This document shows, piece after piece, positions 18,128-25,256 of a stretch of DNA of 64,000 nucleotides. The stretch lies in NCBI GenBank assembly GCA_902825775.1, contig CADECF010000002.1, positions 124,001 to 188,000 of the forward strand, in the 5' to 3' direction. The position numbers and the translations under genes were made by a program. Every line of letters begins with the position of its first letter. Position 1 is the stretch's first letter. Source of the DNA: an uncultured Lysobacteraceae bacterium (GTDB lineage Bacteria; Pseudomonadota; Gammaproteobacteria; Xanthomonadales; Xanthomonadaceae). The notes beneath the pieces were generated by a model. It saw only the letters and a program-made list of their open reading frames with translations. It had not been told where the DNA came from and ran no database searches.

Positions 18128-18329
18128 ACGGGCGTTATTCGGTCGTTTCGCGAGCGAATTAGTTAGCTGCGTCAAGGAATCGAAAAATACAAGTTTACGG
18201 ACGTGGCCACTGGACGAAGCTATTTGCGTCGGGAAGGCCGATTCAACACGGGTTTCGACCGTGAAAATCATGGTTCATATGCTGTGTTGCGCGCTCTTTA
18301 TGGCCGGTGCGATTTGGTCGAAGGGAAAA

Positions 18330-18376
18330 GGGGACGGAGTAATTATTCGTTTGAAGCGAATAATTACTCCGTCCCC
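18330..18376. repeat. Isolated perfect hairpin repeat, family H, in a gene-free gap
   Basis: GGGGACGGAGTAATTATTCG (18330-18349) and its exact reverse complement (18357-18376) flank a 7-base loop. A partial copy (GGGGATGGAGTAATTATCCG) occurs near 24975. It lies in the 18128-18653 gap, which shows lower GC than the flanking genes and otherwise no gene I can support; short ORFs there have no recognisable features. Confidence 0.9.
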
Positions 18377-18653
18377 TTATTTCGTCCCCTTATTTTCGTG
18401 GCCGAGCCCCCGTCCGACACGTGGGCGCGTTATAGCAGACCAGGGCCAACTGCGGTCGCGGGCCGTCTAGGGATCGGCAAATCGTTGGTTGTCACTAGGT
18501 CCAGGCGGCTATCGAGCCAGCCTAAATATGTGACGTAATTCGCTATTTCATATGCGGAAGCAACTCGCAGTGTTTTTGTCATAGCGCGACTGATTTAATG
18601 CCCGCGGGGATTTACTCGCGGCTGTGTTCACGCCGAACAACAGGGGTCAACAG

Positions 18654-19085
18654 ATGTTTCCTATTCAGGTCGCGCGAGCGGCGCTCTTAGTGCTCGGCTG
18701 GGGCTATTTCGTTGGTGCGGTTCATGCCCAAGACGTATCGCTTCCGCGCGAGTATGACAAGGTCATCAAGTCGGCCGAGGTCGTCGGCGCGCTAGGAACT
18801 GACTTGTTCGGTGATGAGACCAGTTTCTATACCGGCACGACGGAGTTCACGGCAACAGATGTGAGCCTGCCTGGCAAAGGGCTCATTCCAGTTTCGATCG
18901 GACGCAGGTATCCGGTTGAAGATAAAGTGGGCATATACGGCGGCGTAGGCACGTCTGCACCCGTATATATTTTCGGCGACTGGCAGTTGGATATCCCACA
19001 TTTGCATGGCGTCTTCGCCCGCCAGGGAAGTCCTCAGGGCGGTTGGCTCAGCAGCAACGCTGACTTCAGTCAGCGTTGCTGCTGA
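18654..19085 (+). CDS. N-terminal segment of an interrupted RHS/YD-repeat protein
   Basis: This 143-residue reading frame starts at ATG 18654, eight bases after an AGGGG ribosome-binding site (a GTG at 18624 is also open). A Sec signal peptide (about residues 1-26, cleavage after VHA) shows export. The next part (SFYTGTTEFTATDVSLPGKG..PVSIGRRY) is the N-terminal region typical of secreted RHS-repeat proteins. The frame stops at TGA 19083-19085, inside a perfect palindrome. The same frame then continues with RHS-like sequence, so this is one gene cut by a nonsense codon, not a separate short protein. Confidence 0.82.
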   Translation: MFPIQVARAALLVLGWGYFVGAVHAQDVSLPREYDKVIKSAEVVGALGTDLFGDETSFYTGTTEFTATDVSLPGKGLIPVSIGRRYPVEDKVGIYGGVGTSAPVYIFGDWQLDIPHLHGVFARQGSPQGGWLSSNADFSQRCC

Positions 19086-19091
19086 GCCAAC
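19042..19091. repeat. Perfect 24-bp palindrome with 2-base spacer inside the RHS gene
   Basis: GTTGGCTCAGCAGCAACGCT (start of the left arm, 19042-19065), a TC spacer (19066-19067) and an exact reverse complement (19068-19091). The in-frame TGA at 19083-19085 lies in the right arm. No other copy of this sequence was seen in the window, so it does not belong to the dispersed repeat families. Confidence 0.95.
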
Positions 19092-19202
19092 GCCGATGCG
19101 GCCAAACCGCCCTTCGCCGATGGTCCGCAAGGAGGTACTTTTGCTCCGAGCGAGTATTGGCACGGCAACAGTCTTCACGTTCCAGGCGGCGGCGACCAGG
19201 AA

Positions 19203-22200
19203 ATGCTGGTGGTCGTTCCAGAGAACACCCAGAAACCAACCGATGGAAAGACCTACTACTGGGTGACCTCCGGGCAATGGTATTTCTCTTGCCTGTCCAC
19301 GACAGCCAATGGTGTTGCTGGTGAAGGCTTTTTGGCCGTAGCACCCGATGGCACACGGTACTGGTTCGACTGGATCGTGTCGTGGCCGGCGACGCAGATC
19401 ACCAAGCCGCCTTTTGCTCCGCCGGTGGAGCCTGCTCTGCAGAACCAGCCGCTCGCAGCAGAGGCTGCTGAGGGCCCTATGCCACTGGTTGCCGGCAGCG
19501 CGTTCCTGCGCCGCGACAAGGTCTCTATCTATCCCACTAAGATCCAAGACCGTTTCGGCAATACGGTTACCTATGTATACGACAACACCGTCAAAACGAG
19601 GTTGCTGTCCATCACGGCTAGCGATGGTCGTGTCATCACGTTGTCCTACGATGCCAATGGGCGAGTGCAGAGCGTGTTTGATGGAACCCGTACCTGGAAT
19701 TACACCTACGGACCGACCGGAAACGCGCTAACGGAAGTGGTGCTGCCTGATGCCTCGAAGTGGCAGTTCAACCTTGCGCCTCTGTCGGCGCTATACGCAA
19801 ACGACAGCTTGGTAGACCCGGACTGCTGGTCGGTGCCGATGAATCCGACGCAGACGGCTCAGACCGGTACGATCACACATCCGTCCGGCGCGATCGGTAC
19901 GTTCACTTACAAACCGACGCTGCACGGCCGTTCGTACGCCAACCTTTCTTGCGTCCACTCGATCGATGGCCTAGGCGGCGACTTCTTTTTCTCCATCTAT
20001 CCGTATCTCTTCAGCAGCTTGTCGCTGCAGTCCAAGAAGATCGAAGGGCCCGGCCTGCCCAGTGGTGGCTACACGTGGAACTACACGTACGGGCCTCCGA
20101 ACAACAGTGAAGCCGATTGCAGTGGTTGCGTCGATACTAAGACCGTCGTGGTCCAGGGACCGGATGACTGGGTCCGTTTCACTTTCAGCAATCGTTTCCA
20201 GCAGGGCGAGGGCAAGCTAGTCAAGACCGAGACGGGCACCAGTGCGGCCTCGATCCTACGCACGGAAACCAGCGCCTATCGCATTGATCCTGCCGGGCAG
20301 GCTTATCCTCCCCGCATCGGCCAAACGCCATTCACCCGAAGCGATCGAACATCTGAGAAACATGCGCCCAACATACAGCGCCAGATCGTGCAGCAGGGCA
20401 CCACCTTCACTTGGCAGGTCAATCAGAACAACGGCGTTTATCAATTCGATGCCTACGCGAATCCATTAAGCGTAACTCGTTCGAGTACGCCTGGCGGCTA
20501 TACCCGAACAGATGTCAGTGTTTACGACCACAACACCGCGAAGTGGGTGATCGGCCAGGTTGCCAAGTCCACTAATACCAATAGCGGACTGATTGAGAGT
20601 GAGATCGACTACGACAACAACACCGCACTGCCGCTGTGGGCGAAGGCTTTCGGCAAGCTGCGGCATACGCTGGCCTACAATCCCGACGGCACCCTGCTAA
20701 GCGTCAAGGACGGCAACAACCGCACGACGACGTACAGCGATTGGATGCGCGGCCTTCCTCAGAAGGTCACTTTCGCCGACGCCAAGTTCAAATCGGCGGA
20801 GGTCAACAATATCGGCGGCATCGATTCGGTCACCGACGAGAACGGCTATACCACCCGCTATGGCTATGATGCGATGGGCCGGTTGTCGCTGATCGATTAT
20901 CCCGATGGCGATACCGTCAACTGGGCCAACACGACCCGGAGTTTCGCCATCGCGGGCAGCGCCTACGGTCTGCCGGCCGGGCATTGGCAGCAGGTGGTCA
21001 TCACCGGCAACGCGCGCCAAGTCACCCATTTCGATGCGCTGTGGCGCCCGGTAGTGGTGGCGACCTACGACGCGGCCGACACCGCCGGCACGCTCAGCCA
21101 AACGGTAACCCGTTACGACAGCGACGGCCGGCCCACATTCGTGTCCTATCCGCAACGCAGCCAGGACGCCGCGGTCTACAACACGTGGGGCAACCCGGCG
21201 GTAGCACCCAATGCGCTGGGCACCGACAGCGCCTATGACGTCCTGGGTCGCATCACATCGGTCCAACAGGACAGCGAGTTGGGCGTGCTGACCACCAGCA
21301 CTGCTTATGCGAGCGATGCCAACGGCGCGTACATCCGCATCACCAATCCACGCACCCAGCAGACCCGTATCTGGCACCAGGCCTTCGATACGCCCAGCCA
21401 GGACGCGCCGGTCGCGATCCAGGAGCCGGGCGGCAAATACACCGACATCGTCCGCGACGTGTTCGGCAAGCCCAAGACCATCACCCGCCGCAATACCGAC
21501 AGCACTCTGACCATCGCCCGCCGCTACTATTACGACACCTACCAGCAGTTGTGCCGGACGATGGAACCGGAAACCGGTTCCACGGTGATGCAGTACGACG
21601 ATGCGGGCAACCTGGCCTGGTCGGCGGCCGGCCTGGACCTGCCCACCACCGACGCCTGCTACTTCGCCCAGGGCGACCAATCCGGCCGGCGGGTGGACCG
21701 CACCTACAACACCCGCAACCGGCTCAAGACCCTGGCCTTCCCGGACGACCGCGGCAACCAGAGCTGGACCTACACGGCCGACGGTCTGCCCGACACCATC
21801 GTCACCAACAACGGCGGGGTGGACATCGTCACCAACCGTTACACCTACAACCGGCGCCGGCTGCTGGAGGACGAGCAGCTGAGCTGGGGCAGCGTGGACT
21901 GGACCCTGGGCTACACCTACAACGGCAACGGTCACCTGTCGTCGCAAACCGCGCCGATCGGTGGCACGGTGAGCTACACCCCCAACGCCCTGGGCCAGCC
22001 GACCCAGGTCGGCGACTACGCTACCGGCGTGAGCTACTTCCCCAACGGGGCGGCCCAGCAGTTCACCTATGGCAACGGCATCGTCCACACCCTGACCCAG
22101 AACGATCGCGGCCTGCCCGAACGCAGCCGCGATGTGTACGGCGGGGTGCCGCGGCTAGACGACTCTTACGATTACGACGAGAACGGCAACGTGGCCGGGA

Positions 22201-23615
22201 TCAGCGATGCCACCACGGGCCATCGCGGCGATCGCACCATGACCTACGACGGCCTGGACCGGCTGACCGACGTGGTCTCGCCGATGTACGGCGCCACCGG
22301 AGCGCACTACACCTACGACGTGCTGGACAATCTGATCAAGGTGCAGATCGGCGGCACCGCGGCGCGCACGCACTACTACTGCTACGACGCGGCCTGGCGG
22401 CTGACCAACCTGAAGACCGGCAGTTGCGCCGGGACCAGCGTGATCGGGCTGGGCTACGACGTGCAGGGCAACCTGGCCAACAAGAACGGCACGGCCTTCG
22501 GCTTCGATTACGGCAACCGCCTGCGCAGCGTCAGCACCGCCCCGGAATCCAAGTACGTGTACGACGGCCACGGCCGGCGGGTGAACGACGAGGTGGGCGC
22601 GGACAAGAACAGCTTCTACGGCCAGAATGGGCAGTTGGCCTTCGTCAGCGACCTGCGGCTGCAGCAGTACAGCAACTACTACTACCTCAACGGCAGCCTG
22701 GTGGCGATCCGGGACAAGCCGTTCGGGCAGGATGCGGTGGTCAAATACCAGCACACCGATGCGTTGGGTTCGCCCGTCGCTGTAACCGACGCAAACAGAG
22801 TTGTCATCGAGAAAAACGAATACGAGCCGTTCGGAAAAGTGATCAATCACCCGCTGAAAGACGGCCCCGGCTACACCGGCCACGTCAGCGATGCGACCAC
22901 TAGCATGCTTTACATGCAGGAGCGCTACGATGACCCAGGTCTCGGGAGAACACTAAGTGTTGATCCAGTGACCGCTCACAGCACTGGCGATTACAGATAT
23001 TTCAATCGCTATGCGTATGCCTTCAACAATCCCTATACGTTCAAGGATCCAGATGGTCGCTGTCCTAACTGTGTGACGGGAGGCATAGGCGCTGGTATTG
23101 GCCTACTTGTCGGATTAGGAATCGAAGGCTATCGACAATACAGAACAGGTGAATTCAAGGTGCGCTCTCTTCTTGTAGAGGGAGGAAAAGGCGCTGTAGT
23201 AGGCGGATTAATTGGCCTGACTGGCGGTGCAGCTGCTGCGGGCGGCCTAACACTAAGCGGCCAGGCAGCAGCTACTGGTTCGGTGGCCCTTGGTGTCGGG
23301 ACAGGCGCTCATGCAGTAGGCGAAGTTGCGAAAGGGAATCCTGCACCAAGTGCTAGTGACTCCATAAAGGTGGGTTATGCGACGGCAGCAGGTGCTATTG
23401 CCGGGACCGCATTGAGTCCGGCTACAAAAAGTGTGACAACGACGGTCATTCCCGCTGTCTCATCACATCCGGTTACTTCACTAAGCGGGAAAACCTTCAA
23501 TACTGTCAACATTCCGGCTCAGGTAATCGAAAGGCCGGCCGCCGCTGAAGTAGCCAATAATGTTGCGGGCAGTGTTGTTGAAGATCTCGCTAAGAAGCGA
23601 GAAGAAGGGCAATAG
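19203..23615 (+). CDS. RHS/YD-repeat protein with variable C-terminal tip (main part)
   Basis: A 1470-residue continuation of the interrupted RHS gene. RHS-like coding actually resumes at 19086 in the same frame. Many YD repeats (YDANGRV, YDAMGRLSLIDYPDG, YNPDGTL) run from about residue 140 to 1180 and form the shell that encloses a toxin. The conserved end of the core, DDPGLGRTLSVDPV followed by YRYFNRYAYAFNNPYTFKDPDGR, is at about 1238-1280. The remaining ~190 residues form a Gly/Ala-rich, partly hydrophobic tip with two possible membrane-inserting segments and no nuclease motif. The 3' end is lower in GC than the middle. If the TGA is real and not bypassed, this part lacks its signal peptide. 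Confidence 0.88.
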   Translation: MLVVVPENTQKPTDGKTYYWVTSGQWYFSCLSTTANGVAGEGFLAVAPDGTRYWFDWIVSWPATQITKPPFAPPVEPALQNQPLAAEAAEGPMPLVAGSAFLRRDKVSIYPTKIQDRFGNTVTYVYDNTVKTRLLSITASDGRVITLSYDANGRVQSVFDGTRTWNYTYGPTGNALTEVVLPDASKWQFNLAPLSALYANDSLVDPDCWSVPMNPTQTAQTGTITHPSGAIGTFTYKPTLHGRSYANLSCVHSIDGLGGDFFFSIYPYLFSSLSLQSKKIEGPGLPSGGYTWNYTYGPPNNSEADCSGCVDTKTVVVQGPDDWVRFTFSNRFQQGEGKLVKTETGTSAASILRTETSAYRIDPAGQAYPPRIGQTPFTRSDRTSEKHAPNIQRQIVQQGTTFTWQVNQNNGVYQFDAYANPLSVTRSSTPGGYTRTDVSVYDHNTAKWVIGQVAKSTNTNSGLIESEIDYDNNTALPLWAKAFGKLRHTLAYNPDGTLLSVKDGNNRTTTYSDWMRGLPQKVTFADAKFKSAEVNNIGGIDSVTDENGYTTRYGYDAMGRLSLIDYPDGDTVNWANTTRSFAIAGSAYGLPAGHWQQVVITGNARQVTHFDALWRPVVVATYDAADTAGTLSQTVTRYDSDGRPTFVSYPQRSQDAAVYNTWGNPAVAPNALGTDSAYDVLGRITSVQQDSELGVLTTSTAYASDANGAYIRITNPRTQQTRIWHQAFDTPSQDAPVAIQEPGGKYTDIVRDVFGKPKTITRRNTDSTLTIARRYYYDTYQQLCRTMEPETGSTVMQYDDAGNLAWSAAGLDLPTTDACYFAQGDQSGRRVDRTYNTRNRLKTLAFPDDRGNQSWTYTADGLPDTIVTNNGGVDIVTNRYTYNRRRLLEDEQLSWGSVDWTLGYTYNGNGHLSSQTAPIGGTVSYTPNALGQPTQVGDYATGVSYFPNGAAQQFTYGNGIVHTLTQNDRGLPERSRDVYGGVPRLDDSYDYDENGNVAGISDATTGHRGDRTMTYDGLDRLTDVVSPMYGATGAHYTYDVLDNLIKVQIGGTAARTHYYCYDAAWRLTNLKTGSCAGTSVIGLGYDVQGNLANKNGTAFGFDYGNRLRSVSTAPESKYVYDGHGRRVNDEVGADKNSFYGQNGQLAFVSDLRLQQYSNYYYLNGSLVAIRDKPFGQDAVVKYQHTDALGSPVAVTDANRVVIEKNEYEPFGKVINHPLKDGPGYTGHVSDATTSMLYMQERYDDPGLGRTLSVDPVTAHSTGDYRYFNRYAYAFNNPYTFKDPDGRCPNCVTGGIGAGIGLLVGLGIEGYRQYRTGEFKVRSLLVEGGKGAVVGGLIGLTGGAAAAGGLTLSGQAAATGSVALGVGTGAHAVGEVAKGNPAPSASDSIKVGYATAAGAIAGTALSPATKSVTTTVIPAVSSHPVTSLSGKTFNTVNIPAQVIERPAAAEVANNVAGSVVEDLAKKREEGQ

Positions 23616-23893: not shown

Positions 23894-23916
23894 CGAAGAA
23901 AAGGGGGCGGAGGGCC

Positions 23917-24001
23917 GTAGGTTGGGGTGAAACCCCAACGTCGCCATCTCACTGCCGCTGCGTCTGAAAGGAAACGATGTTGGGGTTTCACCCCAACCTA
24001 C
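23917..24001. repeat. Inverted repeat pair, family G, within the RHS tail region
   Basis: GTAGGTTGGGGTGAAACCCC begins the left copy and GGGGTTTCACCCCAACCTAC ends the right. Single partial copies appear near 24392 and 25119. The pair separates the first candidate immunity gene from an orphan toxin tail, which begins right after 24001. Confidence 0.9.
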
Positions 24002-24121
24002 CGCGCTGGGCGCAATGACGTTAAAATTGCGGCCCAACGTATCAAGTCGGTTGTTGATCAAGTCGCTAAAGGAAAATTGAAGTCAGTGGAAGACATCGCT
24101 AAAGCTTTGAGGGCAAGATAA
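24002..24121 (+). pseudogene. Orphan C-terminal fragment of an RHS toxin tip
   Basis: An open stretch of about 38 codons ending in TAA (24119-24121) encodes AGRNDVKIAAQRIKSVVDQV followed by a Lys-rich tail. It resembles the extreme C-terminus of RHS/polymorphic-toxin tips. It has no start of its own: the frame runs upstream only into the family G repeat. Its stop overlaps the ATG of the next small gene by one base, as toxin and immunity genes commonly do. The likely origin is a displaced older tip whose 5' part was lost. Confidence 0.55.
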
Positions 24122-24369
24122 TGACTGAGCTCACTAACTCTGAAGTTGCACAGTTGATTGGGGCGTTTCTTTCCGAGGCGGAAGTTGGAAAGGTGATGAG
24201 CCACATAGGCCAAGGTGGTAGCTTGCTGATTAAGTACGATGGAAAGCGAAGCGATGAAAATTGGACGGTCGTACTGAGTGATGGTCTGATGAACGATGAT
24301 TTTTTTCGCCAAGACGGGGCTTCGGTTCTGGAGCTGCTTAAAAAGGGCGCGTCCGAAATCACTGGATAG
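24121..24369 (+). CDS. Small acidic protein, candidate immunity protein for the orphan tail
   Basis: An 82-residue, acidic, soluble protein with no TM or signal peptide. The start ATG overlaps the stop of the orphan toxin tail and is preceded by GAGGGC as ribosome-binding site. I recognise no family. Acidic small proteins in this position are usually immunity proteins for basic nuclease-type tips, so this is the probable role. AT-rich codons (e.g. GAT, AAA, TTT) contrast with the window average and point to horizontal transfer. Confidence 0.6.
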   Translation: MTELTNSEVAQLIGAFLSEAEVGKVMSHIGQGGSLLIKYDGKRSDENWTVVLSDGLMNDDFFRQDGASVLELLKKGASEITG

Positions 24370-24542: not shown

Positions 24543-24911
24543 ATGAGACATCTAACTTCGCGAGAAAAGGGTTTGTTGGAGGCTCTATTGCGTCGTGCAA
24601 GCATCCTTCAGATCTACGAAAATGAGTTGGGGGCGTGGTGCGTGGAAGATATGGACGATGGCGGCATGGGGAGTATTCGTCTGCATCGACAAGGCGTATT
24701 GATCGAGAACACGAGCATGGATCGGAAAGTGTCAGAACTTCAGTTTCATGACGCTGATGGGGTGTTAGTCATCGCATCTCTAAACTTGAATGTTGATGAA
24801 TTCCCTTTCGAATTGGATGTGTGGAAGGTGAATTCGGAGCCTTTGCAGGTTATTCCCGAGCCATGCGAGTTCGCAGACGTTGAATACACCAATCCGCGTG
24901 AGGCGGATTAA
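24543..24911 (+). CDS. DUF6984-like small protein, candidate orphan immunity protein
   Basis: A 122-residue soluble acidic protein. It starts MRHLTSREKGLLEALLRRA and has a central MDDGGMGSIRL. The C-terminal half carries FHDADGVLVIASLNLNVDE and FELDVWKV, a pattern I associate with DUF6984-type proteins found beside polymorphic toxins; this is recall, not a search. It is the third small gene downstream of the RHS core and has no toxin directly upstream. Codon use is AT-richer than its housekeeping neighbours. Confidence 0.62.
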   Translation: MRHLTSREKGLLEALLRRASILQIYENELGAWCVEDMDDGGMGSIRLHRQGVLIENTSMDRKVSELQFHDADGVLVIASLNLNVDEFPFELDVWKVNSEPLQVIPEPCEFADVEYTNPREAD

Positions 24912-25256
24912 GCCGGGATCCAAGGGGGTGGAGACCTCGGGCGCAATAACCGAAGGGCATTGCGCCAGAAAGAAAAGGGGATGGAGTAATTATCCGTTTG
25001 AATCGGTTCCATCAGGTGGCCCGAATGATTTCGGTGGGCGCCCGCGGAGACGATAAGCGGCCGGGCGATTAAGCGTTTTCTCGACCATTGCCTGGAAGCG
25101 CGGACTGCCAAGTGCGCGCTCGGGTGGAACCCCAACATCGCCATCTCGCCGCTCCAGCGCGCACTGTTTTGGTTGGCGTCAACCACTGTAGACGCGGCTT
25201 TAAGGCCAGGCGCGTTAGCCTCCATGCGCATCGCACAATGCGACTGCGGAGGCGGC
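24912..25256. other. Gene-free gap with repeat remnants
   Basis: A 345-base region between the last RHS-associated small gene and the VOC gene. It contains a degenerate half of the family H hairpin (GGGGATGGAGTAATTATCCG near 24975) and a family G fragment (GGAACCCCAACATCGCCATC near 25124). The short open frames show no recognisable protein. It looks like the decayed right edge of the RHS module. Confidence 0.55.

Follow-up and report, generated by a model that had tools for sequence, protein, structure and literature searches.

A premature TGA inside a perfect palindrome of a Lysobacteraceae RHS gene, probably left by a replicative template switch

How does an RHS reading frame, open over its whole remaining length, come to be cut by a stop codon that lies inside a perfect palindrome? 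The question is raised by a gene in the stretch of 64,000 nucleotides analysed here (the window), which belongs to the genome assembly of an uncultured Lysobacteraceae bacterium (GCA_902825775.1, contig CADECF010000002.1). In this gene the frame 18654-23615 has one stop in 1654 codons, and this one coincides with a perfect hairpin. The answer put forward below is that the locus is probably a recent loss-of-function allele of a secreted-type RHS/YD-repeat gene, in which a quasipalindrome was made perfect by a replicative template switch that wrote the TGA; we give this reading a probability of roughly 0.57. The features of the locus are collected in Table 1.

Table 1. Features of the interrupted RHS gene and of its palindrome (positions in the window; a dot stands for no strand).
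Feature	Position	Strand	Basis or remark
RHS gene before the interruption, from the ATG through the premature TGA (5′ piece, 143 aa)	18654..19085	+	ORF lists; tblastn
Probable Sec signal peptide, MFPIQVARAALLVLGWGYFVGAVHA	18654..18728	+	read from the sequence by eye
Left arm of the perfect palindrome	19042..19065	.	starts within the Gly codon of the family Gly-Trp
Spacer, 2 bases	19066..19067	.	
Right arm of the perfect palindrome	19068..19091	.	putative split, judged from the homologue alignment: inner stem 19068-19079, patch 19080-19085, outer stem 19086-19091
Arg-Cys codons, kept in the family	19074..19079	+	column counts over the aligning homologues
Two-codon patch, Cys-stop (proposed template-switch product)	19080..19085	+	homologues: mostly Ser, then a sense codon (Val commonest)
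Remainder of the RHS frame, 1509 codons	19086..23615	+	RHS/YD repeats, RHS core

The two pieces of the gene are recognized in different ways. The N-terminal piece, whose ATG is preceded by AGGGG in the sequence, has no match to any Pfam or NCBIfam model at an E value of 0.001, and in tblastn it shows 42-55% identity to the N-termini of paralogues and family homologues, with one weaker match at 26%. The frame downstream of the TGA has no internal stop, and its earliest ATG, GTG or TTG, at 19203, lies 39 codons past the TGA. The initial annotation had described the codons after the TGA as RHS-like, which is borne out by the homologue matches and by two models, Pfam RHS_repeat (2e-21, 76.3 bits, cut-off 22) and NCBIfam Rhs_assc_core (3.3e-14, 53.1 bits, cut-off 32.5); PF03527 (RHS) reaches 22.6 bits, under its cut-off of 27.9. 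The downstream frame thus has both marks of an RHS/YD-repeat protein, namely YD repeats and an RHS-associated core. No toxin family is found among the Pfam and NCBIfam matches to 19203-23612, and these libraries need not contain every toxin.

The frames that come next after the RHS gene match either DUF6984 or nothing above the cut-offs of Pfam and NCBIfam. The DUF6984 gene (24543-24911, 122 aa, Pfam 6.5e-26) lies downstream of the RHS gene. At 24008-24369, a startless short frame ending in KLKSVEDIAKALRAR is directly followed by an 82-codon frame; these frames are without a Pfam or NCBIfam match at an E value of 0.1, and the stretch resembles a leftover RHS tip together with a small partner gene. 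Elsewhere in the genome (3.76 Mb in 26 contigs, 98.72% complete), three further paralogues of the interrupted stretch are present on contigs C6, C11, and C12, and their matched parts are free of stops. The one that is closest in the palindrome region (L003 and L010, on C11) has a frame of 806 codons and lies less than 4 kb from a contig end; contig C11 may end within its RHS gene.

The palindrome itself, described earlier from the letters of the window, has withstood recomputation: its 24-base arms, separated by 2 bases, are exact reverse complements (24/24), the TGA at 19083-19085 is inside the right arm and in frame with both the ATG at 18654 and 19203-23615, and this single frame holds no second stop. 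From base composition, 2e-8 perfect palindromes with arms of at least 24 bases and a spacer of at most 12 are expected per 64 kb.

What stood at this place before the interruption has to be read from distant homologues, since the matches listed have at most 56% identity to the downstream piece. This piece has a match (E ≤0.001) in 179 of 395 family genomes, and none of the matches listed from the 395 has a stop inside it. A close orthologue was not found in the 395 family genomes, in four genomes of the genus (the own one included) or in two wider contig scans. A DNA search for relatives matched four of 60 genomes, the own genome among them. In the wider contig scans, the N-terminal piece gave no closer relative and the C-terminal piece gave four loci; L058 from Arenimonas oryziterrae, found with the latter, is a family member with 51% identity, and L059-L061 do not align in the palindrome region and were left out. 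Altogether 39 homologues align there, taken from the fetched best-matching loci of the 179 matching genomes and from the genus and contig scans; several of these rows are near-identical genes from related genomes, so that the counts below are not independent.

Column counts over this alignment show a conserved frame around a non-conserved patch. Arg is found in 36 of the 39 homologues and Cys in all 39; the residue after Arg-Cys is Ser in 27/39, and at the position of the window's stop the commonest single residue is Val (12/39, and 7 of the 13 rows with at least 45% identity to the C-terminal piece). For a comparison of the patch itself, three loci without the Arg (L033, L034, and L036) were excluded, and L040 was retained: stops interrupt its translation further upstream, but its patch codons are sense. 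In all of the 36 homologues with the Arg-Cys motif, both patch positions are sense codons, versus Cys-stop in the window. Their six patch bases differ from those of the window at three (5 rows), four (14 rows), five (12 rows) or six places (5 rows), and their second patch codon is one change away from any stop in 4/36, two changes in 20/36, and three in 12/36. The six bases found in the window are the ones that bridge the 12-bp inner stem and the 6-bp outer stem, giving a perfect stem of 24 bp.

These figures bear directly on the simplest explanation, according to which the stop arose by ordinary point mutations, without any templated event, and the palindrome is there by coincidence. For the four homologues with a codon a single substitution away from a stop such a path is short, but a perfect pair of 24-bp arms would then have to be present by chance, against the expectation of about 2e-8 per 64 kb, and the foreign codons would have to be exactly those that complete the stem; we consider this very unlikely.

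Another proposal, made when the palindrome was first noted, was a palindromic duplication that inactivated the gene, with alignment to RHS homologues as the way to see an insertion. The nonsense interruption of the RHS gene stands, and the idea of an inserted palindrome finds no support for the right arm. This arm encodes the family Arg-Cys and, in its outer stem, Ala-Asn as in the C11 paralogue, and it does so at the spacing of this paralogue: the sequence KRCSVANAIAAKPP of the latter and QRCC*ANADAAKPP of the window are of equal length, with no indel, and the distance from the right arm to the downstream Pro-Pro is the same in both, while other homologues differ in length. The right arm as an insert was therefore dropped as an explanation. 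Since Arg-Cys is kept and the length is unchanged relative to the C11 paralogue, the right arm appears, on the evidence of the alignment, to be largely native coding sequence, in which only the two-codon patch looks foreign. The left arm is in a stretch of variable length, so for this arm a copied insert may be considered. No palindrome is seen in any of the 39 homologues, where perfect arms extend to 9 bp at most and 24-base arms match at no more than 15/24 positions; thus, as far as these compared genes go, the palindrome seems to be specific to the gene of the window. The imperfect repeat presupposed by the template-switch reading is likewise seen in none of them.

An intrastrand template switch would account for the combination of features: an unchanged length, a cluster of adjacent changes, and a perfect palindrome. 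The patch with the stop is most readily understood as a copy of the left arm. The mechanism is established in E. coli, where a stalled polymerase takes the nascent strand as its template and thereby brings a quasipalindrome to, or closer to, perfect symmetry (PMC7202029); in S. cerevisiae, multinucleotide mutations in 39 protein-coding genes have been inferred to stem from template switches (PMC8604942). For the RHS gene, the sequence of events would be as follows. An imperfect inverted repeat would have existed by chance in the coding sequence, made up of the left arm on one side and of the inner and outer stems on the other. During copying through the right arm, the nascent 3′ end would snap back onto the 12-bp inner stem, be extended across the non-matching middle with the left arm as a template, and then re-align on the 6-bp outer stem. 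The outcome would be the two-codon patch, a palindrome that is now perfect, and a TGA in frame. We infer, from the present state of the locus and its homologues, that the repeat was formerly imperfect, that copying ran in this direction and happened once, and that a full-length product is no longer exported.

The template-switch reading asks for a native left arm, for which there is modest support from residues and length. The W-L-S-S-N encoded by the left arm resembles W-V-S-S-N of L057 and W-V-G-S-N of L032, which are the two top-scoring among five same-genus loci outside the own genome; the W-x-S-N motif is absent from the remaining three same-genus loci and from all three paralogues. Besides, the length from Trp to Arg-Cys in the window is inside the family range. 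The inner part of the left arm lies in the Gly-Trp to Arg-Cys stretch, where the homologues vary most and the length ranges widely; because of this location, the left arm may be a copy and not the template.

The order of events would then be reversed: the stop would have come first by substitutions, and a later fold-back, beginning at the 6 complementary bases of the outer stem, would have used the right arm with its mutation as a template to write the left arm into the variable loop. The placement of the inner left arm within the variable stretch speaks for such an order, a dead gene would tolerate a later palindrome, and a hairpin or reverse-complement repeat is described as capable of arising in one template-switch event (PMC8794818). 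Moreover, even an imperfect repeat is absent from all 39 homologues, and this adds slightly to the weight of the stop-first order. It needs at least two independent steps, however, with 32 of 36 homologue codons being two or more changes away from any stop, and it leaves the likeness of the left-arm residues to the two best same-genus homologues and the Trp-to-Arg-Cys length within the family range speaking against it. Overall, we regard a stop that preceded the palindrome as the less likely, though plausible, order.

Whether a quasipalindrome can be presupposed at all was judged from the background of the contig, counted on 388 kb of its 389 kb. Imperfect inverted repeats with at least 18/24 matches number 61 there, and 14 of them, the RHS one included, have no second place on these 388 kb, so a pre-existing quasipalindrome is nothing remarkable in a genome as large as this one. 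Perfect palindromes with arms of at least 13 bases and a spacer of at most 12 number 10, five of them with arms of at least 20, and among these five, three exceed the RHS palindrome in length. Long open frames also cover three of the shorter perfect palindromes, which have 13-bp arms. The arms of the other four long palindromes recur on the contig, and that of the RHS palindrome does not: with up to two mismatches allowed, the right-arm sequence occurs in the 3.76-Mb genome at the two arms and nowhere else. A mobile or REP-like element was rejected on these grounds, as the arm has no further genomic copies, unlike the repeated palindromes of the contig.

The same counts help to weigh an error of assembly or library, in which a fold-back chimera or a consensus error put both palindrome and stop into the contig. 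That the sole stop of 1654 codons coincides with a perfect hairpin is what such an error would produce. On the other hand, a crude fold-back would add sequence, but here the family codons on either side of the patch are spaced as in the C11 paralogue, and the recurring arms of the other four long palindromes give no sign of many such errors on this contig. An artefact looks unlikely.

Inverted repeats do occur on both sides of the RHS gene. Just upstream of it, a near-perfect and apparently intergenic palindrome at 18328-18378 holds GGGGACGGAGTAATTA, a 16-mer with seven genomic copies, six of which form three closely spaced inverted pairs; a diverged copy is at 24975-24999. Downstream of the RHS gene, inverted 33-bp arms with 91% complementarity lie at 23911-24007, and within this pair GTTGGGGTGAAACCCCAAC occurs twice in opposite orientation.

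A bypass of the stop, which the initial annotation had listed among the explanations, would turn the locus from a broken gene into a recoded one: the hairpin and TGA would be decoded by read-through, selenocysteine insertion or bypassing to give a full-length protein, perhaps at a regulated level. The 1509 open codons after the stop are in keeping with this, as is the very stable predicted RNA hairpin around it (-64.4 kcal/mol, z -8.30). However, a recent mutation accounts equally well for the open frame, given that 3.4% of single substitutions there create a stop, and a stable RNA fold is what the palindrome would lead one to expect and is not evidence for function. A search of the genome for tRNA-Sec gave 13 matches, a single one of which was above the cut-off (47.7 versus 47 bits), and this candidate was discarded, being read as tRNA-Ser by ARAGORN (4 of 8 fetched loci scanned). 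All six selB matches were below the cut-off of 242.25, which is passed by 2 of 14 control genomes, in an assembly that is 98.72% complete. With neither tRNA-Sec nor SelB found at these thresholds, with sense codons in the homologues, and with neither stop nor palindrome in those compared, the proposed bypass gained no support, and the chance of functional recoding appears slim. Slimmer still is the chance that the palindrome acts as a mutational on/off switch, with recurrent writing and erasing of the stop, to vary a surface or contact protein within the population.

As to the RNA itself, the fold at 19037-19120 reaches past the 24-bp stem. The left GGGCGGTTGGC can also pair with GCCAAACCGCCC further to the right, which gives the left outer arm two potential partners. 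The hairpin does not resemble an intrinsic terminator, since no T run is present 3′ of 19091, where the sequence reads GCCGATGCGGCC.

Returning to a recent loss of function by template switching, its age can be bounded roughly from the downstream frame, where 459 of the 13581 possible single substitutions (3.4%) create a stop. At this rate, and leaving indels aside, about thirty neutral substitutions would be expected to accumulate before the frame is closed; it looks as though the loss is recent or the 3′ part is still in use. The likely product of the interrupted gene is an N-terminal fragment of 143 residues. A protein initiated at 19203 would have no signal peptide and would begin inside a conserved stretch. 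Owing to the premature stop, the signal peptide and the YD core would be separated onto different products, and one of the four RHS paralogues in this genome is probably inactive.

Under the template-switch reading, the locus would be a clean natural example of a known mutational mechanism in an ordinary RHS gene and no new type of system. It suggests that one replication error may create a stop codon at a single stroke, and it warns against treating nonsense or multi-base codon changes beside perfect palindromes as independent substitutions or as signs of selection.

The closest known parallels are the E. coli lacZ reporters and the natural thyA hotspot, where, as described in PMC7202029, an imperfect repeat in a coding gene is likewise perfected via the nascent strand. 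There the event was measured in the laboratory, whereas here it would be deduced from distant homologues, with a nonsense outcome, in an assembled wild genome. The template switches described in coding genes of S. cerevisiae share with the RHS case the homogenisation of the arms and changes of neighbouring amino acids in natural genes. According to its described procedure, this study (PMC8604942) dropped orthologous sets with premature stops, so that nonsense outcomes were out of its view, and it compared strains with a reconstructed parent, while the comparison here is with distant homologues only. Among RHS/YD-repeat proteins, to which the downstream frame is joined by RHS_repeat and Rhs_assc_core, the gene of the window is distinguished by an interruption before the repeats. 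Finally, in mitochondrial genes of Nematomorpha, too, conserved coding sequence contains perfect palindromes, both arms of which are coding; as presented in PMC6649704, those genes are functional and have many such repeats, whereas the RHS gene has a single palindrome, and this one carries the stop.
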